DNA of 64,000 bases from Anaeromyxobacter diazotrophicus (GTDB lineage Bacteria > Myxococcota > Myxococcia > Myxococcales > Anaeromyxobacteraceae): positions 186,001 through 250,000 of the forward strand of contig NZ_BJTG01000003.1 in the NCBI RefSeq assembly GCF_013340205.1, written 5' to 3'. The notes beneath the pieces are model-generated. The model saw only the letters and a program-made list of their open reading frames with translations, was not told the DNA's origin and searched no databases. The position numbers and the translations under genes were made by a program. Shown piece after piece: positions 14,963 to 62,324 of the stretch (its first letter is position 1; each line of letters opens with the position of its first letter).

Positions 14963-16255
14963 TCACGCGAAGAGCGCGTTCGACACGTTGGGCTCCAGCG
15001 TCGCGAGGTCGGTCACTCCGTGCGCCTCGTCGCACCAGGGCGCGAGCGCCGCGCCCGAGATCCCGATGGCCAGGCCGAAGATGCTCACCCCGAGCGCCGC
15101 CGCGCGCTCTCGCAGCCCCGGGGCAGCGGCGGCGTCGTCCTCTCCGTCGGAGATGAGGACGAGGTCGGCGCTCCGAAAGCCGCCGCGGGCATCCGCAATG
15201 ACTTTGAGCCCGCGCTCCACGGCAGCGGCGATGGAGGTCCCTCCGCCGCAGCGCACGAAGAGCGCCTCCTCCGGGAGCGGGGCGCCTGGGGGGACCACAT
15301 CCAGGTAGAACGGCGCAGCGTTGTAGGCGACGAGCGCAAACACCCGCCGCTCGGCGCGCGCGTGCTCGAGCAGCGCCAGCGCGAGCGCGGTGGCCCAGAC
15401 GTCCTTCAGGCCGCCGCCCTCGTCCATCGAGGAGCTCTTGTCGAGGAGCACCACGAGCGGGCCGCGGCCGAGGCGCTCGCTCCCGCCGAGCTGGTACTCG
15501 AGCAGCTGGCGCTCGGCGAGGCTGCGGAAGAAATCCAGGCGCCGCCGCGGGTCGGTGAGGCGCGCGAGCTCGACCGGCAGCGCCCGGGCGAGGTCCGCGC
15601 CCTGCGTGACGTCGGTCAGCTCGTCCGCGCCGTGGCGCACCCGCGCCCGGCGCTTCGAGGCGGCGATCCGCTTCATCCGGCCGGCGAGGAGCGCGATGCG
15701 CCGCAGGCGGGAGTCGCCCCGCAGCCGCGCCGCGAGGGGGCGTGCTCGGGCTCCCTCGCCGGCGCCGCCGCGCTGAGTGGACGTCCCGGGCGCGAAGGCG
15801 ACGCCAGCGAGCCCCTCCGTCGCCTCACGCAACTCCTCGACGGCGCGCGAGGCAGCGGCGCAAGCCGCGACGAGCGGCCGCCGGAGCGGGTCCTTCGCCG
15901 AGCCCGGCGCCCCGGCAGGCGCCGGATGCTCGGGCGCGGGGAGCTCGCCCAGCTCGTCGAGGAGGGATTCGAGCGCGGCGGCGGCCGCAGAGGCATCGCC
16001 GCGGCACTCCGACGAGAGGCGTCCGAACTGCGGTAGCGCCTCACAGCTCGCGTGGAGGCGCTCGGCCCAGGCGCGCAGCGCCGGGACGGCGTCGCGGTCA
16101 GGGAGGCGGTCACATTCGCCCGCGTAGAGTTGTTCGAAGAGCTCGTCTTCGAACCGCCGCGGGGGCGTGTCGTTCGTGGCTGGCAGCGGCAGACCGCGCG
16201 CGTCGCGGTGCTGGATGAGGTGCCACTTCGGGACGTCGAAGATGAGGCGGCGCAT
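14963..16255 (-). CDS. VWA-domain protein, partner of MoxR ATPase (ViaA-like)
   Basis: The 430-residue protein starts at ATG 16255, overlapping the stop of the MoxR gene. The N-terminal two thirds are helical and alanine/arginine-rich. The C-terminal 200 residues are a von Willebrand A domain with the MIDAS signature DKSSSM (DxSxS), then GGGTSIAAAVERGL (the MIDAS threonine) and VLISDGEDD. MoxR-VWA pairs act as chaperone-like metal or complex assembly machines (compare RavA-ViaA). VWA members of this kind in mobile elements are also discussed as parts of conflict systems. No signal or membrane segment is seen, so it is cytoplasmic. The nearly continuous frame through the upstream genes on this strand is a shadow. 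Confidence 0.85.
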   Translation of the reverse strand: MRRLIFDVPKWHLIQHRDARGLPLPATNDTPPRRFEDELFEQLYAGECDRLPDRDAVPALRAWAERLHASCEALPQFGRLSSECRGDASAAAAALESLLDELGELPAPEHPAPAGAPGSAKDPLRRPLVAACAAASRAVEELREATEGLAGVAFAPGTSTQRGGAGEGARARPLAARLRGDSRLRRIALLAGRMKRIAASKRRARVRHGADELTDVTQGADLARALPVELARLTDPRRRLDFFRSLAERQLLEYQLGGSERLGRGPLVVLLDKSSSMDEGGGLKDVWATALALALLEHARAERRVFALVAYNAAPFYLDVVPPGAPLPEEALFVRCGGGTSIAAAVERGLKVIADARGGFRSADLVLISDGEDDAAAAPGLRERAAALGVSIFGLAIGISGAALAPWCDEAHGVTDLATLEPNVSNALFA

Positions 16256-17421
16256 CAGCGAGCCCCTCCCAAGCCGAGGCCGTGCGTCACGGATCGCGCG
16301 AGGTCGGACTGGAGCTGCGCGATCTCCTGGCAGGCATCGGCGAGCGTCGCCTTCGCGCGCGGCCCAGCGCCGCGCGCGAGCTCCGTCAACCGCGACTGCT
16401 GCGCCTTGAAGTCGTCGAGCGCCTGCGCCGCGCTGGCGATGTAAGCCTTGCGATCCGAGGACCGGAGCCCCGCGACCTTCGCCGCCGTCTCGCGGGCGGC
16501 GTCCAGGATCTCGGCGGCCTTGGCGCTCACCGGATCGGCCAGCTCCCCCACGAGTCGCGCGACCTTGGGGCGCTCCTTCGGTTCGCGCCAGAGCGCGTCC
16601 ACGAGGACGAGGAGGTCCTCGGGGGTGGTGGCGGTCTCTCCGGAGAGGAATGCGTGCGCCTGCACGACGCGCAGGCTCTTCTTCCAGCGTCGGTCGGAGG
16701 CGACGATCCCCTCCGCCGCGCAGGCGTCCCGGGCGGCCATGAGCGCGTCCACGGTGGCGTCCGTGACGGTGACGCTCGCGGCCGCCGCCTGTGCGTCGAG
16801 GAGCGTCTGGAACGAGAAGGCGGTCGCGAGGCCGGGCTCGGGGCCCGTCACGACGGCGCGGAAGCTCGCCGGGCGGCGCAGGTACTGCACGTCGAACCGC
16901 AGGAGGAAGCGATCGAAGAGCGCCTCCAGCTCCTTCCCGTCCGGCAGCTCGTTCGAGGCGCCGAAGAGCGACACGAGCGGCATCGCGAGCGGCGCGCCGT
17001 CGTTGTGGAAGACGCGCTCGTTCATCGCGGTGAGGAGGCTGTTCAGGATGGCCGAGTTCGCCTTGAAGACCTCGTCGACGAAGGCGAACTGCGCCTCGGG
17101 CAGCTTGTCCGAGACGACGCGCGCGTAGCGATCCTGCTCGAGCGCCTTGAGGCTGATCGGCCCGAAGAGCTCCTCGGGCGTCGAGAACTTCGTGAGGAGG
17201 CGCTCGAAGTAGCGGCCGCCGAACGCTTGCGCGAGCGCGCGGACGAGCGCGCTCTTCGCGGTGCCGGGCGGGCCGAGGAGCAGGACGTGCTCGCCCGAGA
17301 GGACGGCGCACAGAGAGCCATCGATGACGTCCCGCCGCTCCGGGAAGCGGGCGTTGAGTTCCTGCCGGAGCTGCTGGATGGTGCTGAGAGGGTTCACTGC
17401 CGTGGTCGTGTTCTCGGTCAT
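16255..17421 (-). CDS. MoxR-family AAA+ ATPase (RavA-like)
   Basis: The 388-residue protein has the AAA+ core in its first 230 residues: Walker A GPPGTAKSALV, Walker B FAFVDEVFKAN, sensor-1 region LFGASNELPDG, and an arginine-finger-like FDRFLLRFDV. The order and spacing are those of the MoxR/RavA group. The C-terminal 150 residues are helical (lid plus coiled coil). It probably remodels or activates the partner encoded by the overlapping downstream VWA gene. The third gene upstream (17440-18315) completes a three-gene unit. ATP-driven chaperone activity is family knowledge; the target here is unknown. Confidence 0.9.
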   Translation of the reverse strand: MTENTTTAVNPLSTIQQLRQELNARFPERRDVIDGSLCAVLSGEHVLLLGPPGTAKSALVRALAQAFGGRYFERLLTKFSTPEELFGPISLKALEQDRYARVVSDKLPEAQFAFVDEVFKANSAILNSLLTAMNERVFHNDGAPLAMPLVSLFGASNELPDGKELEALFDRFLLRFDVQYLRRPASFRAVVTGPEPGLATAFSFQTLLDAQAAAASVTVTDATVDALMAARDACAAEGIVASDRRWKKSLRVVQAHAFLSGETATTPEDLLVLVDALWREPKERPKVARLVGELADPVSAKAAEILDAARETAAKVAGLRSSDRKAYIASAAQALDDFKAQQSRLTELARGAGPRAKATLADACQEIAQLQSDLARSVTHGLGLGGAR

Positions 17422-22429: not shown

Positions 22430-23203
22430 ATGTCGGCACAGGGCGACCAGCTCAGGCTTCGGGCGGTGCCCGTCGATGGTCGTCCCGCGCTACGGCCGTT
22501 CTTCGGCTACTACGGCGGCAAATGGCGGGATGCGACAAAATACTACCCCGAACCGAAGCACGGTCTCGTCGTCGAACCGTTCGCCGGTTCGGCCGGATAC
22601 GCGCTTCGCTACGCGCACCTGAAAGTAGTGCTGTGCGAACTGGATCCAGTCGTATTCGCCGTCTGGAAGTACCTCACCAAGGTGAAAGACAGCGAGATCC
22701 GAAAGCTTCCGCTCCTTCGCCCCGGGCAGTCGGTCGATGACCTGCATCTTCCGCCCGAACCGAGTTGGCTCATCGGATTCTGGCTGAACCGAGCGACCGC
22801 CAGTCCGCGTAAGAACCCCTCGGCGTGGATGCGCTCAGGCGTGCGCCCGGGGTCATTCTGGGGAGAGCGTGTTCGGGACACTATCGCGTCGCAGGTCGAA
22901 TTCATTCAGCACTGGAAAGTGTACCACCGCAGCTACGAGAACTGTCCGGTGAAGAAGTCCGCGACATGGTTCATTGACCCGCCGTACCAGAGGGCGGGGA
23001 AGCACTACAAACTTGGCTCCGAGCAGATCGACTTCCGGCAGCTCGCCGATTGGTGCCGGTCGAGAAAGGGCCAGGTGATCGTCTGCGAGAACCAGGGGGC
23101 GGACTGGTTGGACTTTCAGCCGCTCGCGAGTGTGAAGACAACGCGTCGGGGGCGGCGCTCGGTAGAGGTCATCTGGACGAACCAGCCGCGGGTTCGTCCA
23201 TGA
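22430..23203 (+). CDS. Dam-like (D12 class) DNA adenine methyltransferase
   Basis: The 257-residue protein starts at ATG 22430 (MSAQGDQLRL); an earlier ATG at 22385 would add 15 residues. It shows the D12 class order: FFGYYGGKWRD (motif X), VVEPFAGSAGYALRY (motif I, AdoMet binding), VLCELDPVVFAVW (motif II) and the catalytic FIDPPYQRAGKHY (motif IV, DPPY). It should methylate adenine N6 at an unknown site, marking self DNA. It is the first gene of a run of overlapping genes, with its stop overlapping the next start (ATGA). In that context it is the modification arm of a restriction-like system. Confidence 0.88.
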   Translation: MSAQGDQLRLRAVPVDGRPALRPFFGYYGGKWRDATKYYPEPKHGLVVEPFAGSAGYALRYAHLKVVLCELDPVVFAVWKYLTKVKDSEIRKLPLLRPGQSVDDLHLPPEPSWLIGFWLNRATASPRKNPSAWMRSGVRPGSFWGERVRDTIASQVEFIQHWKVYHRSYENCPVKKSATWFIDPPYQRAGKHYKLGSEQIDFRQLADWCRSRKGQVIVCENQGADWLDFQPLASVKTTRRGRRSVEVIWTNQPRVRP

Positions 23204-23736
23204 CAGCCGTAACCGAGGAACTGCACCGGGCACTTCTTGAGCCCTTGGGAAAGCGAGTCCTGCGCCACTCGGAACTCGGGAACAAGCCCTTGTCCGTCGA
23301 TCTTGCGCTGCCACTTCCGTCCAGGTTGCGCGTCTACATGTACACGCTCGTGGGCGGCGTCGGGACGAAGCGCGCGCAGGAGCACAAGGCTGTTCTTCGA
23401 GTCCCGGGACAGAAGGTGGGGCACTACGCCTCGTTCGACTTCTCGGGCGACCGGTTGGCTCTTCTCGTTGCCTATAACCGGCAGCTCGATGTGTTCGTGC
23501 TGTGGGACGCCAGCCTTCATCCACGATTCAAGCACGGTGGCAACATGCAGGTGCACGAGAACACCGTGTTGAAGGCGGCAGCGCTCGGGAGGGCTGAGCA
23601 AACCAGAGTCTTGTCCGGTGGCGAGCGTGAGGTGGTCATCGCGTGCCAGTCCTCTACGCTCGCGAAGGCGCTGGAGGACCGCGTCTCGTGGACTGGCGGC
23701 GTCCCGGAGGCGAAGTGGGCGGCCTTGCAGAGCTAG
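23200..23736 (+). CDS. Unknown methylase-coupled protein
   Basis: The 178-residue protein starts at the ATG overlapping the methylase stop. It reads as a compact alpha/beta protein: LRVYMYTLVGGVGTKRAQEH, then KAVLRVPGQ and LALLVAYNRQLDVFVLWDAS, followed by GNMQVHENTVLKAA. The DVFVLWDA pattern occurs in uncharacterised domains next to methylases in restriction-like operons (possibly the methylase-associated MTaX1 group, from memory and unverified). It could be the target-recognition or nuclease partner. No clear PD-(D/E)XK triad is seen. Its 3' end overlaps the helicase gene by 22 bases. Confidence 0.7.
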   Translation: MTAVTEELHRALLEPLGKRVLRHSELGNKPLSVDLALPLPSRLRVYMYTLVGGVGTKRAQEHKAVLRVPGQKVGHYASFDFSGDRLALLVAYNRQLDVFVLWDASLHPRFKHGGNMQVHENTVLKAAALGRAEQTRVLSGGEREVVIACQSSTLAKALEDRVSWTGGVPEAKWAALQS

Positions 23737-25829
23737 GTCTCAAGACCTCGTATCACAAGGGCCGCGATGACATCGCGGAGCAGTTCTACCTTCCGTGCAT
23801 GCGGAGAGCGGTCGCTCTGGACCGAGCCGTCGGCTTCTTCCGAAGTAGCGTCTACATCATCGCGTGGCCTGCGCTCAGGGACTTCGTGAGGCGCGGAGGA
23901 CACATCCGGGTCTTGTGTTCTCAGGTGCTGTCCCCGGAAGACCTGGACGCTCTGAAGCAGGGGTATGCCGCCCGTGCGGATGCTGCTCTCGCCGCCCGTT
24001 CCCTCGATGATGTTCGGGCACTGCTGAACGACGAAGTTCTGCGCGAGCCCGCCCGCATCTTGGCGGCGCTCGTTGCCGCGGGACACGTTGAGCTCAAGAT
24101 CGCTCTGTTACGCGGCGGTCAGACTGACGCAAGATCGGACCGCATCTTCCACGACAAGCTGGGGATCTTCAGGGACACCGACGGCAACCACGTCGTCTTC
24201 AAGGGCTCGATGAACGAGACCTGGGCCGGGCTTGCCGCCGATGGGAATCTGGAGTCCATCGACGTTGCGGCGAGCTGGCTCGGCGCGCGTGACCTGGATC
24301 GCGCACGTGTGGAAGAGGAGTACTTCGAGGATCTCTGGGGCAACCGTTACCCAACGCTTACGGTTCGCCCGTTCCCCGAGGTCGCGCTTGAAGAGTTTCG
24401 GAAGGCGGCAGCCGAGGACTGGGAGGCCGACCTCGAGCGAATTCTGAAACCTGCGTGTCCGCCGAAGCCAGGCGATCCTCGCGGACGCAAGCTGAAGGAC
24501 CACCAGCGAGAAGGCCTGAAGTCCTGGGCTTCAAACGGCAGGCGGGGCATTCTCGCTTTCGCAACCGGCAGCGGAAAGACCTTCACTGCGATAACGGCGA
24601 TTCGCGAAGCCCTCGGCGAGCGCGGCGAAGTGGCGGTGGTGGTCGTGCCGGACCAGGTCCTCTTCGGTCAGTGGTGCCAGGAGCTCGAAGAGACCACTCA
24701 GGACCTTGGCGTACAGATCCTCCGTGCGGGGGCGGGTTACAACAGATGGCGGGACAACCTGCACCTCTGGACTGCTCCGGGGCCGATGCGCCGCCTCGTC
24801 TTGGCGACGCTCAAGACGGCCGCATCCGAAGACTTTCGAAGTCGCCTCGCCGGGGGCACCCACCTCTTCCTCGTTGCCGACGAGGTTCACCGCCTCGGCT
24901 CGCCGCACCACCGCAAGCTGATGGATGAGCGCCTGTTCGGGCCAAGACTTGGTCTGAGCGCAACCCCGGAGCGCGCTGGCGACGAAGTTGGAACCGCCGC
25001 CCTGATCGGATTCTTTAGGGGCGTTCTTGAGCCAAGGTACACGTTGGCCGACGCCGTCAGAGACCGTGTGCTCACGCCGTATTTCTACCGGCCACACACC
25101 GTAAGGCTCGCGGATGATGAGGCGGAGGAATGGCGCCGACTCTCAACCGAGATCGCTCAACTGACCGCGCGGATGGCGACCGGAGATACGTCGCCGGGGC
25201 TCGATGAACGCATCAAGAGACTGCTCATCCAACGCGCCAAGGTCGTGAAACACGCTGCCGCCAAGGTGCCGCTTGCGGTCGAGGTTCTGAGTACGGAGTA
25301 CCAGTCCGGTCAGCGTTGGATCGTGTACTGCGATGACCTCTTTCAACTGGAAGCCGTGTGCGACGCTCTGCATGGAGCGGGGCTCCAGGCGATGCCGTTC
25401 CATTCACAAGGCGAGAGCGACCGCGCAGCAACCCTTCGTTGGCTTGACCTCCGAGGCGGGATCGTGGTCGCGATCAAGTGCCTGGACGAAGGTGTGGATG
25501 TGCCCTCGGTAACGCACGCGCTAATACTGGCGTCGTCGAAGAATCCGCGGGAGTTCGTTCAGCGCCGCGGCCGGGTGTTGCGGCGCGCCGACAACAAGGC
25601 TCTCGCGTTCGTACACGACGCCATCGTGGTGCCGCCCAAGGTAGAGGTGCCTGTTGGTGAACGGGCGAAAGATCCCATCACCACCGGCGAGTTGGCCCGA
25701 GCCGTTGAGTTCGCGCAGCACGCGGACAATCCCGCTGCTGCGGTAGACCTCCAGAAGATCGCGATCGAAGCGGGGATCGACTGGCGGACCCTCCTGAACA
25801 ATGGGAGTGAAGAAGATGAAGACGAGTGA
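23715..25829 (+). CDS. SF2 helicase with N-terminal phospholipase-D-like nuclease domain
   Basis: The 704-residue protein starts at GTG 23715 behind GGAGG. Residues 1-220 are a PLD-like domain: AVGFFRSSVYIIAWPAL at the start and FHDKLGIF...FKGSMNETW near residue 146 (HxK and GS-N-E pattern). The helicase core follows: Walker A FATGSGKTFTAI (near 281), DEVH box VADEVHRLGS (near 389), SATPERAGDEV (motif III region), IVYCDDLFQLEAV, and motifs V-VI CLDEGVDVPS and QRRGRVLRR. PLD-helicase fusions occur in phosphorothioate-linked and other restriction systems. It probably translocates on or cleaves unmodified foreign DNA. It overlaps both neighbouring genes. Confidence 0.88.
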   Translation: MGGLAELGLKTSYHKGRDDIAEQFYLPCMRRAVALDRAVGFFRSSVYIIAWPALRDFVRRGGHIRVLCSQVLSPEDLDALKQGYAARADAALAARSLDDVRALLNDEVLREPARILAALVAAGHVELKIALLRGGQTDARSDRIFHDKLGIFRDTDGNHVVFKGSMNETWAGLAADGNLESIDVAASWLGARDLDRARVEEEYFEDLWGNRYPTLTVRPFPEVALEEFRKAAAEDWEADLERILKPACPPKPGDPRGRKLKDHQREGLKSWASNGRRGILAFATGSGKTFTAITAIREALGERGEVAVVVVPDQVLFGQWCQELEETTQDLGVQILRAGAGYNRWRDNLHLWTAPGPMRRLVLATLKTAASEDFRSRLAGGTHLFLVADEVHRLGSPHHRKLMDERLFGPRLGLSATPERAGDEVGTAALIGFFRGVLEPRYTLADAVRDRVLTPYFYRPHTVRLADDEAEEWRRLSTEIAQLTARMATGDTSPGLDERIKRLLIQRAKVVKHAAAKVPLAVEVLSTEYQSGQRWIVYCDDLFQLEAVCDALHGAGLQAMPFHSQGESDRAATLRWLDLRGGIVVAIKCLDEGVDVPSVTHALILASSKNPREFVQRRGRVLRRADNKALAFVHDAIVVPPKVEVPVGERAKDPITTGELARAVEFAQHADNPAAAVDLQKIAIEAGIDWRTLLNNGSEEDEDE

Positions 25830-26010
25830 ACTGAAGGCTCTCCTGAAGACCGTGAAGATCATCGGCACCGAACTTCATCCCGATCTCAGTCCTGACTTCC
25901 TGGAAGCGGTGGTCAAGGCCGAGCAGGAGAACCCGGACGACGAACCGGCGGCCCAGCGCGAAATCGAGCAGGCGCTGGAGAAGGTCCTTTCGCGCAAGAG
26001 GAGTCGCTAG
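25801..26010 (+). CDS. Small hypothetical component of the defence-like operon (69 residues)
   Basis: The protein reads MGVKKMKTSELKALLKTVKI, then a PDLSPDFLEAVVKAEQENP segment and a basic end EKVLSRKRSR. It is helical and charged, with no motif. It starts inside the helicase gene (overlap 29 bases) and its TAG stop overlaps the GTG start of the ATPase gene, so it is translationally coupled to both. That placement suggests a structural subunit linking helicase and ATPase; this is inference. A start at 25816 is possible. Confidence 0.75.
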   Translation: MGVKKMKTSELKALLKTVKIIGTELHPDLSPDFLEAVVKAEQENPDDEPAAQREIEQALEKVLSRKRSR

Positions 26011-27944
26011 TGCTTACTCTCAAGCGCCTGGAGATCGAGGGGTTCGGCCCCTTCGCCGAAAAGCAGGTCGTGACCTTTCCGAAGTCGCACGGGGTCACCG
26101 TCGTGTACGGCGACAACATGAGGGGCAAGACCTCGCTTCTCAACGCCATCCGGTATGCATTCTTCGGCAAGGTTCTCGGCCGGGGTGCGCGAGAGAGGCG
26201 GCTTCACACGATCACGAACCGAGCGCGAGCCGCGGACGGCAAGTTCGGCTTCTCCGTTGCGCTGGCGTTTGACTATGACGAAACCGAGTACGAGCTCATC
26301 CGCTCGTGCCGAGCTGCTTCACTGACTCCCGCGAATGATGGGGATTACGTCCAAGAGGTGCTGCTCCGCCGCGGCCGGACTGTCTTGGGGCCCCAGGAGC
26401 AGGAGAAGCAGCTCCATCAAATCTTCCCTCACGAGGTCTCGCGGTTCTTCTTGTTCGACGGCGAGCTTCTCCAGGAGTACGAGGAGCTGCTCATCAACGA
26501 GAGCGACACGGGCCGAAGCATTTCAGAGGCTATCGAGCGAATCCTCGGGATGCCCATTCTCAAGAAGGGGCGCGCGCATCTTACGAAGCTCATGGAAGAT
26601 GCCGACAAGCTCGCGGCTAAGGAGGCGAGCAAGAATCAGCAGACGAAGGCCTTGGGGGCGTCTCTCCAAATGGCCGCCGAGCAACGGGAAGCTCACCAGA
26701 ACGAGATCCGCAGACTCCAGCATGAAATTGAGGAGTACACCGAGCGGAAGTCGGAGCTGGAAGAGCTGATGAAGTCGAATCAGAAGTACCGCGCTCTCCT
26801 GGACGAGAAGGAGAGGCTAGAGACAGAACTGGACCAGCTTGAGCGTCAAGAGCGAGCGCGGCGCGGGGACCTTCAGCGCGCCATGGCCGAGGCGTGGAAG
26901 AGCGTTCTCTTCGAGACCGTGCGAAGCGCCCGCGCCGAAGCGCAGGTCGAGGCGGAGAAGGACTGGGCGAAGATGGTGCTGATGCTCGGGGCAAAGGCGG
27001 CCACGTCCGGGCACTGCGACGTTTGTGGACAAGACGTGGCTGAGGCAGCTCGGGCGAAGCTCAGGGGCAGAACCGCGTCCGTACCACCCGACGGAACCCC
27101 CAGTGTCTCGCCAGCTATCACGCGCCTCGCGGATCTGGGGAAGTTCCATGAGGCCGATAACTCCGGCGAGATCCGTGAACTCTGGACGCAAGTGGACGCG
27201 ATGAGGCTACGCCAAGCTGTAGTGAGGGATCGGCTGGCCGATCTCAGGGGCGGGCTCACGGACTCCGACGAGACAACGCTCAGGCGGTCCGGTGCCGAGT
27301 ATGCGGAAGTGATCGAGAAGCTGGGGAGCGCCAAGAACGGGCTGAGAGAAGAGAACAAGAAGGTCGAGGAGATCGACCAGAACATCCAGCGCATCCGTAA
27401 GCAGCTTGAGCCGCCCGGGAATCCAGAGCGGAAGGCGTGGCAGTTGCGCGCCTCTGTTCTCGGGCAGGCGAGTGCGGTGTTCGCCGCGGCCATCGACCGC
27501 TACAAAAGCGAACTGCGCACCCGAGTTGAGGAGACCGCGAGCGAGCTGTTCCTGACGATGACGACCGAGAAGCGGGACTTCGCGAGGCTTTCGATCAACG
27601 AGAGCTACGGTCTTCACATCGTGCACAGGGACGGGAGGACGGAGGACTCGCGTTCGGCGGGAGCGGAACACGTCGTTGCGCTGGCTCTTATGGGATCGCT
27701 CCAGAGGAACGCACCTCTCCGAGGCCCTATCGTCATGGACTCCCTTTTCGGGAGACTCGACGGCGGGCATCGGAAGAACGTGATCGCGGCGCTTCCCGAA
27801 ATGGCCGAACAGGTGATCCTGCTCGTCCACGAGGCCGAGGTGTCGAAGCCCCAAGTGCGAGCGTTGCTGGGTGGTCGTCTCCTGAAGGAGTACGAACTGC
27901 AGCACGTCTCGGCGCGTCGGACAAATATCGCTGCCGTGAGGTAG
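26010..27944 (+). CDS. DndD-like SMC/Rad50-type ATPase
   Basis: The 644-residue protein starts at GTG 26010. The N-terminal half-ATPase has LEIEGFGPFAEKQVV and a Walker A GDNMRGKTSLLNAIRYAFFG (near residues 34-53). FFLFDGELLQEYEELL follows, typical of DndD. Two coiled-coil arms surround a zinc-hook-like CDVCGQ near residue 336. The C-terminal half has the signature SRSAGAEHVVALALMGSL and Walker B PIVMDSLFGRLDGGH, then LVHEAEV. In Dnd systems DndD provides ATPase activity for DNA modification. Here the sulfur-transfer genes (dndA, dndC) are absent, so its partner reaction must differ. It follows the 69-residue gene with a TAGTG overlap. Confidence 0.88.
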   Translation: MLTLKRLEIEGFGPFAEKQVVTFPKSHGVTVVYGDNMRGKTSLLNAIRYAFFGKVLGRGARERRLHTITNRARAADGKFGFSVALAFDYDETEYELIRSCRAASLTPANDGDYVQEVLLRRGRTVLGPQEQEKQLHQIFPHEVSRFFLFDGELLQEYEELLINESDTGRSISEAIERILGMPILKKGRAHLTKLMEDADKLAAKEASKNQQTKALGASLQMAAEQREAHQNEIRRLQHEIEEYTERKSELEELMKSNQKYRALLDEKERLETELDQLERQERARRGDLQRAMAEAWKSVLFETVRSARAEAQVEAEKDWAKMVLMLGAKAATSGHCDVCGQDVAEAARAKLRGRTASVPPDGTPSVSPAITRLADLGKFHEADNSGEIRELWTQVDAMRLRQAVVRDRLADLRGGLTDSDETTLRRSGAEYAEVIEKLGSAKNGLREENKKVEEIDQNIQRIRKQLEPPGNPERKAWQLRASVLGQASAVFAAAIDRYKSELRTRVEETASELFLTMTTEKRDFARLSINESYGLHIVHRDGRTEDSRSAGAEHVVALALMGSLQRNAPLRGPIVMDSLFGRLDGGHRKNVIAALPEMAEQVILLVHEAEVSKPQVRALLGGRLLKEYELQHVSARRTNIAAVR

Positions 27945-27947
27945 CCC

Positions 27948-28292
27948 ATGAACGATCTCGACACCATCGGCCTCACGCCGGACTCGCGGCGGGCACTTAC
28001 CGAACTGGAGGCGAAGGGCTGGTTTCAAGACGGCCAAGACGCGGCCAGGTTCTGCATGGCTTACGCGATTCGCGCAAAGCTGCCCGAGGGCGTCACCGAA
28101 GACCGCACTACGCAGTGGGCGGCCGGCAACTTCGACAAGAGCGGCGAGATCCGCGCACTCCTTGCTGCGCTCTACCCGGACTGCCAGACGCCAGTTCGCC
28201 TCATGGAGCACTTCGTGAACCAAGGATTGGTCATGGTCGCCGCCCGTGTGCGTTCCGATGCCGTCGGGCCGGCAGAACTTCTGGCTGACTAG
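27948..28292 (+). CDS. Small DndE-like partner of the ATPase
   Basis: The 114-residue protein lies three bases after the ATPase gene. It reads LTPDSRRALTELEAKGWFQD, then ARFCMAYAIRAKLPEGV and ALYPDCQTPVRLMEHFVNQG. The helical pattern and its position after a DndD-like gene recall small DndE-type proteins, but I cannot assign it firmly. The family is known to me only as small proteins next to DndD-like ATPases. A DNA-binding or complex-scaffolding role is plausible. It ends the tightly overlapping part of the operon; the glycosylase gene follows after 168 bases. Confidence 0.7.
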   Translation: MNDLDTIGLTPDSRRALTELEAKGWFQDGQDAARFCMAYAIRAKLPEGVTEDRTTQWAAGNFDKSGEIRALLAALYPDCQTPVRLMEHFVNQGLVMVAARVRSDAVGPAELLAD

Positions 28293-28460
28293 GTTGTGAA
28301 CCGTCTCCGAAGCTCGCAGGCGCGCCGCGCGCTCGAACGGAAAGCGGCAAACGTGACAAACGGCTCAACCGCCCGGGCAACCACCGCTCGCGGCGGTAGT
28401 CCAAGAGCGTCATCCTGCGCCCCCGTACGCGGAGGACCGTCGCGCTTGGATGAAGGCGCA

Positions 28461-29423
28461 ATGATCACGGGCGAGCAGATGGAGACGAGGCGCATCATCC
28501 GCTGGTACTTCGAAACCGGGCGGACTGATGGCGTGCCCTTCTACTGCGATCCAGAACGCGTCGGTGCTTTCGCGGTACAGCGCGATGAGCTGGCGGCCGG
28601 AAGTGACCGAGCCGTATTCCGTCTCTTCGTCACCCTCTCGATGTATCAGGCGCTGCGCGATGTCGTGATCATGCGCCAGCAGCGCTCCATGCAGCGCAGG
28701 TTGATTCGCGTCGTCGCCGACGTGGGGACCGTGAAACGGGCAATCTCGAGCCACGCTTGCCGGGCGCTGGGGTCCGTCGAGGCCTTCGAGGGTTGTGATG
28801 TTTCGAAGAACGGTCAGGTCATCGACTGCGGCACATGCCCAGGTATCGCGTGTCATGTGAAGGACGCGACGCGCGTCTTCAAACGCATGGGGGACATGGG
28901 CAAGCTGCCGACATCGGCGTGGCTTCGTTGTTGGCGGGGCGGCGGGATGCAAGCGCTGCTTGAAGAGGTTTGTCGCGAGGAGCCGTCGCCGACGAAGAGG
29001 GCTGAGCTTCTCGTTCAGCGCTTCGCAGCAGTGCATCGGGTCGGGCGCAAGCTCGCGAGCATGTTCGTGAGCTCGCTCTCGACTCCGGCGCTCGCTCCGG
29101 GGCTCACGCCCTGGTTCCCTGAGATAGACGGCAACGAGCTCGTGGTCGTGGACACGAACGTGGCGCGTGCTGTCGATTCTCTTCGTACGCCGGGCGGGCC
29201 CCGGACTTACAACGCGCGCGAGCGGTGGGTACGGGAACAAGCTGCTCTGATCGACCTGCGCGTGTTTCACCCGGACCTGCCCGCTTACTCTCCGAGACTC
29301 GTGCAGGAGGCGCTGTACGCGTTCTGCTCGAAGTCCAACCGCCTCGCTCGGGGCGACACATGCGCTGGACGGGGCACGCCGTGCGCGGATTGCGCTCCAG
29401 CGTTGTGTCCGTTTGGGATGTAG
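28461..29423 (+). CDS. Endonuclease-III-like HhH-GPD DNA glycosylase with [4Fe-4S] motif
   Basis: The 320-residue protein starts at ATG 28461 (MITGEQMETRRIIRWYF); an in-frame start at 28296 would add a low-quality basic leader. It has the hairpin and catalytic lysine of the endonuclease III family in VHRVGRKLAS (compare LPGVGRKTA; Lys near residue 197) and the catalytic aspartate in VVVDTNVARAV (compare VDTHIFRV). At the very C-terminus are four cysteines as C-x6-C-x2-C-x4-C (CAGRGTPCADCAPALC), close to the C-x6-C-x2-C-x5-C cluster of EndoIII/MutY. Both key residues and the cluster are therefore present. The N-terminal 150 residues, with Cys in CDVSKNGQVIDCGTCPGIAC, are unfamiliar and may recognise the target base. 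Confidence 0.82.
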   Translation: MITGEQMETRRIIRWYFETGRTDGVPFYCDPERVGAFAVQRDELAAGSDRAVFRLFVTLSMYQALRDVVIMRQQRSMQRRLIRVVADVGTVKRAISSHACRALGSVEAFEGCDVSKNGQVIDCGTCPGIACHVKDATRVFKRMGDMGKLPTSAWLRCWRGGGMQALLEEVCREEPSPTKRAELLVQRFAAVHRVGRKLASMFVSSLSTPALAPGLTPWFPEIDGNELVVVDTNVARAVDSLRTPGGPRTYNARERWVREQAALIDLRVFHPDLPAYSPRLVQEALYAFCSKSNRLARGDTCAGRGTPCADCAPALCPFGM

Positions 29424-30526: not shown

Positions 30527-31466
30527 GTAACCGCCCAACGATGGACGGCTGGCGTGCGTGATCGCAGCAAGTGATCCTCCGCGTTCTAACGGATGGCGGT
30601 GGCCATCATCGACGGCCGAGTCGCGCCGTTCGCCAGCGGCGGGAGCGGGGGCCTGTGCGACGTGGGGCCAGTCAGGCCGGCGATGAGGCTAGAGCGTGAC
30701 CAGCTCGGCTAGCTTGGCCGCGACGTCTGCCATGGACGCTTCTGCAGTGCTCAGGCCGCTTCGCGAGCCGAGCAGGGGGCTAACTTCGCGGAGAGCTTCA
30801 TACGTCGTGCCGTGCACGATGGGAACGAGCAGGTCACGCGCTAGGAGTGCCGAAAGCTCTTTGTCGGCGATGCCCTCTCCTCGAACGCGCCCCAACAGCG
30901 CAGGGGTCACTAGCACAATACCGACTCGCGACTTCGCTAATCCCTTGTCGATTTCGCGGAGCAACGACGTGCCGAGGGCCACGTCCTTCTCGCTAAACCA
31001 GACCGAGACACCTCGCGAAACGAGCAGGTCGTGAAGCTCCTTGGCGGCTCCTCCCCGGTCGTCCCACGCATGGCAGAGAAAGACGTCCCGAGGGTCAGGC
31101 AGGGACGCTCGCTTCTCGACGCTGTTGCGGATCGGCGTGAGTGCCCGCACCTCGGCAGGCGAATACACCACGGACGAGCCTGCTCGCGACCAGCGCGGCC
31201 TTCCGCTGCTGCCTGACGCGCCGACACTGCTCAGGCTGCCGCCGGTGCTCTGCGACGGGTAGTAGGACGGGGAGGAGTATGACCCGTAGCCTCTGTAGCG
31301 GCCACCGCGGCATGCAGGGCACGCCGCTGCAGCGCTCGCTGAGCGATGTCCATTTACTGGTGCTGTGCATCTAGCCATATCGCGGATGATACCGGCTACC
31401 AGGTAAGAGCAGCGAGGATCTTTGGCGGGCATCACGCTTGCCAGACGTCCATCGCCGGGCGGTTAC
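30527..31466. mobile_element. IS66-type mobile cassette carrying a TIR-domain gene, 8-bp target duplication
   Basis: The left end reads GTAACCGCCCAACGATGGAC from 30527; the right end, read inward from 31466, is GTAACCGCCCGGCGATGGAC. They match at 18 of 20 bases, and both continue with CTGGC. The octamer GGTGCGCT stands directly outside each end (30519-30526 and 31467-31474). Only one gene, a TIR-domain gene, lies inside and there is no transposase. The right end is identical over its first 15 bases to the right end of the IS66 transposon at 8739. It is therefore a non-autonomous cassette of 940 bases that an IS66 transposase could move in trans. Confidence 0.88.
30689..31378 (-). CDS. TIR-domain protein with N-terminal zinc-ribbon motif
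   Basis: The 229-residue protein starts at MARCTAPVNGHRSASAAAAC; the Cys/His start (C-x4-GH, then CPAC) looks like a small zinc knuckle often seen before bacterial TIR domains. A serine/tyrosine-rich linker (YGSYSSPSYYPSQS) follows. The TIR domain covers about residues 95-225: DVFLCHAWDDRGGAAKELHD (box 1), then VSVWFSEKDVALGTSLLREI, where Glu in SEKD is the expected NADase residue, and VGIVLVTPALLGR. Bacterial TIR effectors usually cleave NAD+ or make signalling nucleotides upon infection. No sensor gene is next to it inside the cassette, so it may sense by itself. Confidence 0.88.
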   Translation of the reverse strand: MARCTAPVNGHRSASAAAACPACRGGRYRGYGSYSSPSYYPSQSTGGSLSSVGASGSSGRPRWSRAGSSVVYSPAEVRALTPIRNSVEKRASLPDPRDVFLCHAWDDRGGAAKELHDLLVSRGVSVWFSEKDVALGTSLLREIDKGLAKSRVGIVLVTPALLGRVRGEGIADKELSALLARDLLVPIVHGTTYEALREVSPLLGSRSGLSTAEASMADVAAKLAELVTL

Positions 31467-60920: not shown

Positions 60921-62318
60921 ATGATGGCTTCCGTCTACTCGCGCGATGACAAGTGGTATCTCCGGTACAAGGACGCGTTCGGCCGCTGGAAGGCGAAGGC
61001 GTCCACCGCCGCCACGAAAGCCGAAGCGAAGCGCCTCGCGTTCGAGCTCGAGCGGAAGGCAGAGCGCCAGCGCCTCGGCCTCGAGCCTCTCCCCACGGAC
61101 TTCACGACGACCCTTACCGAGCTCTGCGGGTGGTGGCTCGTCGAACGGTGCCCGGAGAAGTCGAAGTACGCGGAGCGGAGCCGCCTCTCGACGCACGTCT
61201 TCTCGTCGCCGCTCGGCGCGCTCGAGATCCCCCGCGTCACCACGGTGCGGATCGACGAGCACCTCCGGTCCATGCAGCGAGCCGGCCTAGGCGCGGGGTC
61301 GGTGAACCGGCTCCGCGCCATCCTGCACTGCGTCTTCAACGCGGCGACGAAGGCAGGGAAGTGGACGGGGCCGAACCCGGTCGCGGCGGCGGAGCGCCGA
61401 AGCGTGCCGAAGAAGGCGTACTCGACGCTGCGCGCGGACGAGGTGTCGGTGTTCCTCGCCCACGTCCCGGAGCGCCACCGCGCGCTCTTCGCCGCCGCGA
61501 TCTGGACCGGCATGCGGAAGGGCGAGCTCATCGGCCTCCGGAAGTCGGACGTCGATCTCGAGCACGGCATCATCTTGGTGGCGAGGAGCTACGACAAGGA
61601 GACGACGAAGGGCGGGCACGCGGACGCGATCCCCATCGCGGAGCCGCTCCGACCGTTCCTCGAGGACGCGATCGCGCGCTCGCCGTCCGAGCTCGTCTTC
61701 CCGCGGAAGAGCGGCGCGATGGGGAAGGCATGGGAGCCGTTCGAGATCGTGCTGCGCGCGTCGCTGAACCGCGCCGGGCTCGTTCTCGGCTACGACCACA
61801 CCTGCCGGCGCTGCAAGAGGAACGGGACCCCTCACGTCGAACGTCACCAGGACCCGGTGGAGCGTCACTGCCCGCGTTGCCACATGGCGCTCTGGCCGGT
61901 ACCGGTGCCGCGTCCGATGCGGTTCCACGACCTGCGGCACACGACCGCGACGCTGCTCCTCCGTGCCGGCGTCGACGTCCACCGCGTCCAGAAGATCCTC
62001 CGCCACAAGGACGTGCGGACGACGACGATGATCTACGGGCACCTCGACGTGGAGGACCTGCGGAGCGCGGTGAACCAGCTCATGCCGGGCTGGGAGGCGC
62101 CCGTCTTCGAGCAGCGCCCGGTTGTTGAGGTCGACGCTCAGTCCGGATCAGGGGGCCTTGTTACAACCTTGTTACAGGAGGGGTCCGGAGGGCATGAGAA
62201 GGCCGGGACCCCCGACGAGAAACCCGTGGAAATCCCGGCCTCTGTGCTGGCGCGCCCTAGAGGATTTGAACCTCTGGCCTTCGGATTCGTAGTCCGACGC
62301 TCTATCCAACTGAGCTAA
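60921..62318 (+). CDS. int: Tyrosine integrase of the element
   Basis: The 465-residue protein starts at ATG 60921 or 60924 behind GAGGTGA. An N-terminal arm-binding part (MASVYSRDDKWYLRYKDAFG) and a SAM-like domain precede the catalytic domain: IWTGMRKGELIGL (Arg I), FHDLRHTTATLLL (H-x-x-R), LRHKDVRTTTMIYGHLD (His and the Tyr nucleophile). An insertion with two Cys pairs (CRRCKRNG and HCPRCHMALW) interrupts the domain, an unusual zinc-ribbon-like feature. The C-terminus (RPRGFEPLAFGFVVRRSI) is translated from the tRNA-Arg gene, as in many ICE integrases that target tRNA 3' ends. Confidence 0.93.
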   Translation: MMASVYSRDDKWYLRYKDAFGRWKAKASTAATKAEAKRLAFELERKAERQRLGLEPLPTDFTTTLTELCGWWLVERCPEKSKYAERSRLSTHVFSSPLGALEIPRVTTVRIDEHLRSMQRAGLGAGSVNRLRAILHCVFNAATKAGKWTGPNPVAAAERRSVPKKAYSTLRADEVSVFLAHVPERHRALFAAAIWTGMRKGELIGLRKSDVDLEHGIILVARSYDKETTKGGHADAIPIAEPLRPFLEDAIARSPSELVFPRKSGAMGKAWEPFEIVLRASLNRAGLVLGYDHTCRRCKRNGTPHVERHQDPVERHCPRCHMALWPVPVPRPMRFHDLRHTTATLLLRAGVDVHRVQKILRHKDVRTTTMIYGHLDVEDLRSAVNQLMPGWEAPVFEQRPVVEVDAQSGSGGLVTTLLQEGSGGHEKAGTPDEKPVEIPASVLARPRGFEPLAFGFVVRRSIQLS

Positions 62319-62324
62319 GGGCGC
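62252..62324 (-). tRNA. tRNA-Arg (anticodon ACG), integration site
   Basis: The minus strand gives a complete cloverleaf of 73 bases: acceptor GCGCCCT/AGGGCGC, D-arm GCTC...GAGC, anticodon stem TCGGA/TCCGA with loop CTACGAA (anticodon ACG) and T-arm AGAGG TTCAAAT CCTCT. CCA is not encoded. The 3' end faces the integrase gene, so the right attachment core lies within about 62252-62300. The tRNA stays functional after integration. Confidence 0.95.

Follow-up and report, generated by a model that had tools for sequence, protein, structure and literature searches.

The last gene of a seven-gene operon in Anaeromyxobacter diazotrophicus (28296-29423) is proposed to encode a dedicated antiviral DNA glycosylase of the HhH-GPD superfamily, a portable last-gene accessory that would remove an abnormal or modified base from invading DNA; weighing the structural model and the sequence comparisons together, we give this reading a probability of about one half. 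The window, the whole stretch of DNA analysed here, spans 64,000 nucleotides of the 4.83 Mb genome of this member of the Myxococcota. The operon occupies positions 22430-29423, where seven consecutive genes, all confirmed, lie on the forward strand:

22430-23203, + strand: D12/Dam-type DNA methyltransferase (motifs FGYYGGK, VEPFAGSAG and DPPY)
23200-23736, + strand: MTaX1 (methylase-associated X1) protein (Pfam PF20296, E 6.3e-11)
23715-25829, + strand: PbeA, a fusion of a PLD(HKD)-like domain and an SF2 helicase (PADLOC PbeA, 7e-196)
25801-26010, + strand: PbeB-like small protein of 69 aa (position; homologue in locus L037)
26010-27944, + strand: PbeC, a CxC-clade ABC ATPase with a CxxC hook, HCDVC (PADLOC PbeC, 1e-183)
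27948-28292, + strand: PbeD/DndE homologue with two predicted beta-alpha-alpha units (AlphaFold and Foldseek)
28296-29423, + strand: HhH-GPD [Fe-S] DNA glycosylase-like protein (AlphaFold, Foldseek, hhalign and conservation)

Successive genes overlap by 4, 22, 29 and 1 bp; the DndE-like gene then follows after 3 bp and the glycosylase-like gene after a further 3 (or 168) bp, the latter starting either at GTG 28296, 3 bp past the preceding stop as in L037 and L015, or at ATG 28461. The best start of PbeA, GTG 23715, was chosen by comparison with L037.

The first six genes constitute a methylation-type PbeABCD (CxC-ABC-ATPase/DndE) system with a D12 methylase and MTaX1. The methylase matches PADLOC MTase_II (4.5e-31) and, below the cut-off, Pfam D12 (E 0.0045), and its core motifs are kept across the methylase alignment (A4). 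PbeA scores 9.7e-96 against NCBIfam TIGR04095, below cut-off, and the 69-residue protein has a weak match to Pfam Sp-DndD (E 0.0014), likewise below cut-off. PbeC also scores against PADLOC DndD (2e-47), and its hook cysteines are kept in L037 and L138. The DndE-like protein has no library match, and a PDB sequence search with it returned chance globin hits only; modelled by AlphaFold with two homologues (pLDDT 81.5), it has DndE structures throughout its best 16 Foldseek matches (probability 0.99-1.00). By model and fold search, a DndE cognate with two RHH units is present.

PbeABCD has been described by Aravind's group as a CxC-ABC-ATPase/DndE system with variants that carry a methylase and MTaX1 instead of sulfur modification (PMC10853773). 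The operon shares with the published systems the PLD-SF2 helicase, CxC ATPase and DndE in the same order, with a candidate for the small protein in the matching place, but its methylase is of the D12, adenine type, whereas those published are of cytosine type (PMC6459918; PMC10853773). A search of the whole genome found no dndC; the Pbe operon is therefore of the methylation type, and the sulfur-type, phosphorothioation-coupled form is ruled out. A preliminary description of this DNA had pointed to missing sulfur genes, which holds for dndC genome-wide. Its ‘unknown partner’ of the methylase is MTaX1, and the likeness it saw to the Hma class gives way to a PbeABCD/CxC-DndE core, Hma being just another system joined by the same glycosylase family. 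Several Hma operons do end in a glycosylase homologue (L031, L033-L036, L039, L028); however, HmaB and HmaC are missing here, neither being among the listed PADLOC matches of the window proteins, and Hma membership of the operon was rejected on that ground.

The seventh protein, on the evidence of its predicted structure and profile alignment, belongs to the HhH-GPD superfamily. No model of Pfam, NCBIfam, PADLOC or PHROG matches it significantly; Pfam HhH-GPD (PF00730) reaches E 0.038 at best, in three of 34 family members, and the glycosylase profile found no match among PDB sequences. With the sequence libraries silent on HhH-GPD, the assignment rests on structure and profile comparison. The AlphaFold model, built from an alignment of 34 homologues, has a pLDDT of 91 and a pTM of 0.91, and its best 30 Foldseek hits in the PDB are without exception HhH-GPD glycosylases, including MUTYH, OGG1 and MagIII; the best E-value is modest (0.011), the top probabilities are ~1.00, and no competing fold appears. 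In a single hhalign comparison with the host's own Nth family (E 2.5e-4), VGRK aligned with the motif of the catalytic Lys and VVDT with that of the catalytic Asp, and the C-terminal Cys clusters also coincided. Counted from the alternative start at 28461, K197, D231, C301, C308 and C311 occur in 34 of 34 homologues and C316 in 33 of 34. The preliminary description had named just these features (Lys in VGRK, Asp in VDT and the Cys cluster), and its picture of a defence operon to which an HhH-GPD glycosylase has been added is supported.

Four extra cysteines (C100, C112, C123 and C131) are also invariant among the homologues and may form a second metal site. Given its invariant catalytic Lys, the enzyme is probably a glycosylase/AP lyase. 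Like Endonuclease III, MutY and OGG1, this family has the predicted fold, the catalytic Lys and Asp and a C-terminal C-x6-C-x2-C-x4-C; it differs in lying below Pfam HhH-GPD recognition, in a longer Lys-Asp spacing (34 residues), in the four additional invariant Cys and in its defence-locus setting. Fold likeness by itself cannot tell a glycosylase from a related transferase, and the protein might use its HhH-GPD scaffold to modify bases, as a transferase akin to the phage amino acid:DNA transferases, in place of acting as a hydrolase. An amino acid:DNA transferase does rank second in the viral structure library (E 5.7e-3), helical domains of 5-hmdU DNA kinases rank fourth and fifth, and DefensePredictor systems include related nucleotide-modification domains (PMC13092281). 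First rank, however, goes to an archaeal-virus endonuclease III (E 2e-3), the Fe-S Cys and the catalytic Lys and Asp are kept as in glycosylases, and there is no PHROG or Pfam affinity to transferase families; with thymine-hypermodification proteins as the next named viral fold matches, the transferase is retained as a minor rival, and a very improbable one.

Relatives of the glycosylase were found at 36 further loci in at least three phyla, the sampling comprising one GTDB scan (32 loci), one viral scan (one more locus, from a viral contig) and one phylum (12 of 195 Myxococcota genomes, one match being partial only). The GTDB record titles include Myxococcota/Deltaproteobacteria, Planctomycetota, Nitrospirae, Aromatoleum and others, some of them doubtful as taxonomy (one titled ‘Comamonas’ is the same contig as a Myxococcota-group genome). 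Genes on the contigs were called by a simple script; neighbours were annotated with PADLOC and Pfam, and names were then transferred by tblastn. The survey of neighbours covers loci found via the glycosylase itself, from which the tblastn queries were also drawn. At or near the end of an operon, homologues accompany BREX, Hma, Iet/McrC, GmrSD-HEPN, Druantia I, DruA-SspF/DndH-like, Pbe and lone-methylase arrangements, which besides Pbe are:

L015, also near L027: PglX-PglZ-BrxL (BREX) and glycosylase
L029: BrxHI-PglXI-PglZ and glycosylase
L031, L033-L036, L039: Hma and glycosylase
L028: Hma-McrC-Iet and glycosylase
L026: McrC-Iet and glycosylase
L027, L032, L041 (HEPN alone in L030): GmrSD-like/HEPN and glycosylase
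Ten loci with a GHKL-DruA pair: Druantia I with DruA, and DruE1 where scanned, and glycosylase
L044, L047 (parts in L056): DruA-SspF/SspG/DndH-like and glycosylase
L016, L038, L040, L048: methylase with little else and glycosylase

Thus, at least seven types of antiviral cluster that are not otherwise related carry a relative of the glycosylase at their end. In most loci, the glycosylase starts -4 to +28 bp from the stop of the preceding gene; the weakest linkage is that of L058, where a cytosine methylase at a distance of 2.6 kb is the sole gene of defence type. As a control, none of 10 genes adjoining canonical HhH-GPD genes had a PADLOC match, and a search of 20 canonical HhH-GPD loci for the defence proteins turned up a single weak AAA match; since the tblastn queries were taken from glycosylase loci, the PADLOC control is the fairer of the two. 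The recurrence across unrelated clusters suggests a common, transferable weapon directed at the DNA of viruses.

Several of these loci are unusual in their own right. L014/L221 (G013:C152) holds a co-directional composite operon, HmaA-HmaB-HmaC-AAA-McrC-IetA-IetS-glycosylase. In L047:339-9935 and L044:320-9936, DruA is fused to an SspF/DndF-like region and followed by SspG-like and DndH-like genes and then the glycosylase, an arrangement that reads as a Druantia-DndFGH hybrid system with the glycosylase as end gene. A GHKL ATPase with a weak MzaB match lies immediately 5' of DruA and the glycosylase in L043:6301-9941 and nine similar loci, and HEPN-domain proteins of the RiboL-PSP / MAE_28990 type lie 5' of the glycosylase in L027:5455-6552, L041:9214-9954 and L030:179-934.

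The glycosylase tree divides into two clades, A and B, with full support; the context of the catalytic Lys is GRK in clade A and S/N-x-K in clade B. The seven-gene operon was found again in a Nitrospirae genome (L037), with identities of 60-73%, so that a homologous operon does carry the glycosylase, a recurrence that the preliminary description had proposed to look for. The Pbe glycosylases of the window and L037 are not sisters: the window copy clusters with Iet and GmrSD copies (a set of five, with support of 97/89), and branches with strong support require at least two origins of the glycosylase in Pbe. The tree indicates, accordingly, that the glycosylase moves between defence systems. 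Methylase-Pbe operons also occur without it, in L138 (viral contig) and L092 (Aurantiacibacter plasmid), as do the sulfur-type Pbe of L093 and the Pbe operon of L114 (genome G060). The glycosylase is a portable, optional component of the operon. At L138:5364-11312 (IMG/VR 3300035523_000137), methylase-MTaX1-PbeABCD stands beside apparent phage replication genes; L092 is the nearest plasmid Pbe operon (PbeA 43%), and its last gene encodes a sigma-factor-like HTH protein (L092:13597-14910) instead of the glycosylase.

The superfamily is common to Nth, MutY and OGG1, and the gene might accordingly be an ordinary chromosomal repair glycosylase that merely lies beside a defence operon. Against this stand its recurrence with many defence systems, its apparent movement between them and its location on a putative integrative element; the gene is also missing from the other listed genomes of the host's genus and family. 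The host has four HhH-GPD Pfam matches elsewhere in its genome, the window gene not among them, and the family stands apart from these ordinary repair enzymes, a grouping that the preliminary description had singled out for checking. An ordinary repair gene is refuted as far as sequence allows, and we regard it as extremely unlikely. Spread of the glycosylase by plasmids or phages was also considered and rejected: tblastn searches of 72,556 plasmids and 50,697 phages returned no match to either the window protein or one clade-B glycosylase.

The element in question appears to be bounded downstream of the operon by two overlapping features:

60921-62318, + strand: tyrosine integrase, judged by sequence, its 3' end overlapping the opposite-strand tRNA-Arg
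62248-62324, - strand: tRNA-Arg(acg), the putative attachment site

An imperfect 52-bp copy of part of the tRNA-Arg lies 75.7 kb upstream (G000:C3:172503-172554). The integrase/tRNA-Arg and this copy are likely to be the ends of the element, and on these features the operon is taken to be carried by an integrative element some 75.7 kb long. Genes resembling a conjugation apparatus, as judged from their sequence, lie between the two ends. An apparent TIR-type ORF (30689-31435, - strand) is found just 3' of the operon, and 5' of it an apparent MoxR-like AAA ATPase and a neighbouring ORF (16255-17421, - strand) resemble a RavA-VWA type pair.

The partners of the two clades differ in methylation. 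A methylase is present in 17 of 20 clade-A loci vs 2 of 17 clade-B (Druantia-type) loci (Fisher p 5e-5, calculated on 16 of 20, the clade-A count prior to extending L028). The association of clade A with methylating systems would also fit a methylation-linked role of the glycosylase. The R.PabI-type fold differs from HhH-GPD. R.PabI-type enzymes nevertheless offer a precedent for a glycosylase as restriction component beside a methylase (PMC10273834), and the window protein could by analogy excise a normal base at sites that the partner has left unmethylated. Consistent with such a pair, three of the 195 Myxococcota genomes encode the window-type D12 methylase, always at a glycosylase locus, and L037 likewise has the two together; the lone methylase-glycosylase pair of L016 overlaps by 4 bp; and methylases predominate in clade A, as counted above. 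However, closely related glycosylases (~72-77% to that of the window) serve systems with wholly different methylases (D12, PglX, HmaB and others). What the glycosylase targets therefore probably does not depend on the site specificity of its partner, a common recognition site is unlikely, and restriction by site-matched pairs is improbable in general, though possible for lone pairs. The family, unlike R.PabI-type enzymes, also occurs in methylase-free systems, and in Druantia-type loci without a methylase such an enzyme would attack the host. We consider this explanation distinctly unlikely.

Alternatively, the glycosylase may be a self-repair helper that clears host lesions made by the defence system itself, for example through collateral alkylation by the methylase. 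The company that clade A keeps with methylating systems would fit, as would the presence of the H. pylori 3-methyladenine glycosylase MagIII among the fold matches; but clade B accompanies methylase-free systems, and several HhH-GPD enzymes are present in hosts anyway, with four matches in the genome of the window, which leaves self-repair about as improbable as R.PabI-like restriction. That the methylase always comes with the glycosylase does not hold outside cells: viral contigs often carry the D12 methylase family (218 matching stretches), and the glycosylase is missing from all 80 viral loci that were kept (L132-L211). Phages may use this methylase family against systems of this type; the methylase tree is too weakly resolved to place the cellular copies relative to those of phages.

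In the preferred reading, that of a dedicated antiviral glycosylase, two activities would complement each other. The PbeABCD-MTaX1-methylase core would mark self DNA by methylation, and unmarked DNA would be attacked by the helicase-nuclease; independently, the glycosylase would flip out and remove an abnormal or modified base of the invading DNA. The resulting abasic sites or nicks could block replication and provide an entry point for the helicase-nuclease, and the glycosylase would thereby cover phages whose modified bases shield them against the partner system. We infer this enzymatic activity, base target and antiphage effect from the model and the sequence comparisons. A variant, in which the lesions mainly serve as the substrate sensed by the partner helicase-nuclease and the glycosylase is not protective alone, draws on the SF2/SNF2 or DruE-type helicases present in most partners, and on the Hachiman helicase, reported as a DNA-damage sensor (PMC12278908). 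Helicases are common in defence systems in any case, though, and the lone methylase-glycosylase pairs of L016 and L048 have no evident helicase, so that such damage marking seems unlikely.

The dedicated glycosylase would have a functional parallel in Brig1 and Brig3, which belong to the uracil-DNA-glycosylase superfamily; Brig1 homologues are often found near BREX/Pgl, and a role complementary to those systems has been argued (PMC11078745, PMC13160076). The comparison with Brig1 drawn in the preliminary description stands for the proposed function, base excision from invading DNA by the product of a defence-island gene, and fails for the family: fold and catalytic residues differ, and no uracil-DNA-glycosylase fold is among the listed fold matches of the window protein (PDB and viral structure library). 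An antiphage glycosylase of the HhH-GPD superfamily would therefore be convergent. That description had also called the glycosylase an unfamiliar addition, and in the open-access literature searched no HhH-GPD or glycosylase gene is described with BREX, Druantia or phage defence; a term search of the two PbeABCD papers found no mention of a glycosylase with that system (PMC6459918; PMC10853773). PADLOC-DB v2 has no model for the gene, and surveys made with it consequently overlook it.

A wider proposal, which we advance tentatively and at somewhat less than even odds, is that one as yet undescribed HhH-GPD [Fe-S] family acts as a general bolt-on antiviral effector, recruited repeatedly by at least seven mechanistically unrelated systems (Pbe, BREX, Hma, Iet/McrC, GmrSD-HEPN, Druantia I and DndFGH-like) and divided into two partner-specialised clades, one for methylating and one for Druantia-like partners; it would excise an invader base that the partner systems cannot handle. 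Antiviral DNA glycosylases are a recent discovery, confined in the literature searched to the uracil-glycosylase superfamily. If the reading holds, a second, unrelated superfamily would serve as a portable last gene of many systems and would show base excision to be one of the general layers of immunity in bacteria. It would also explain how methylation-based systems handle phages hidden behind modified bases, and the family would be a source of enzymes specific to unusual DNA bases.
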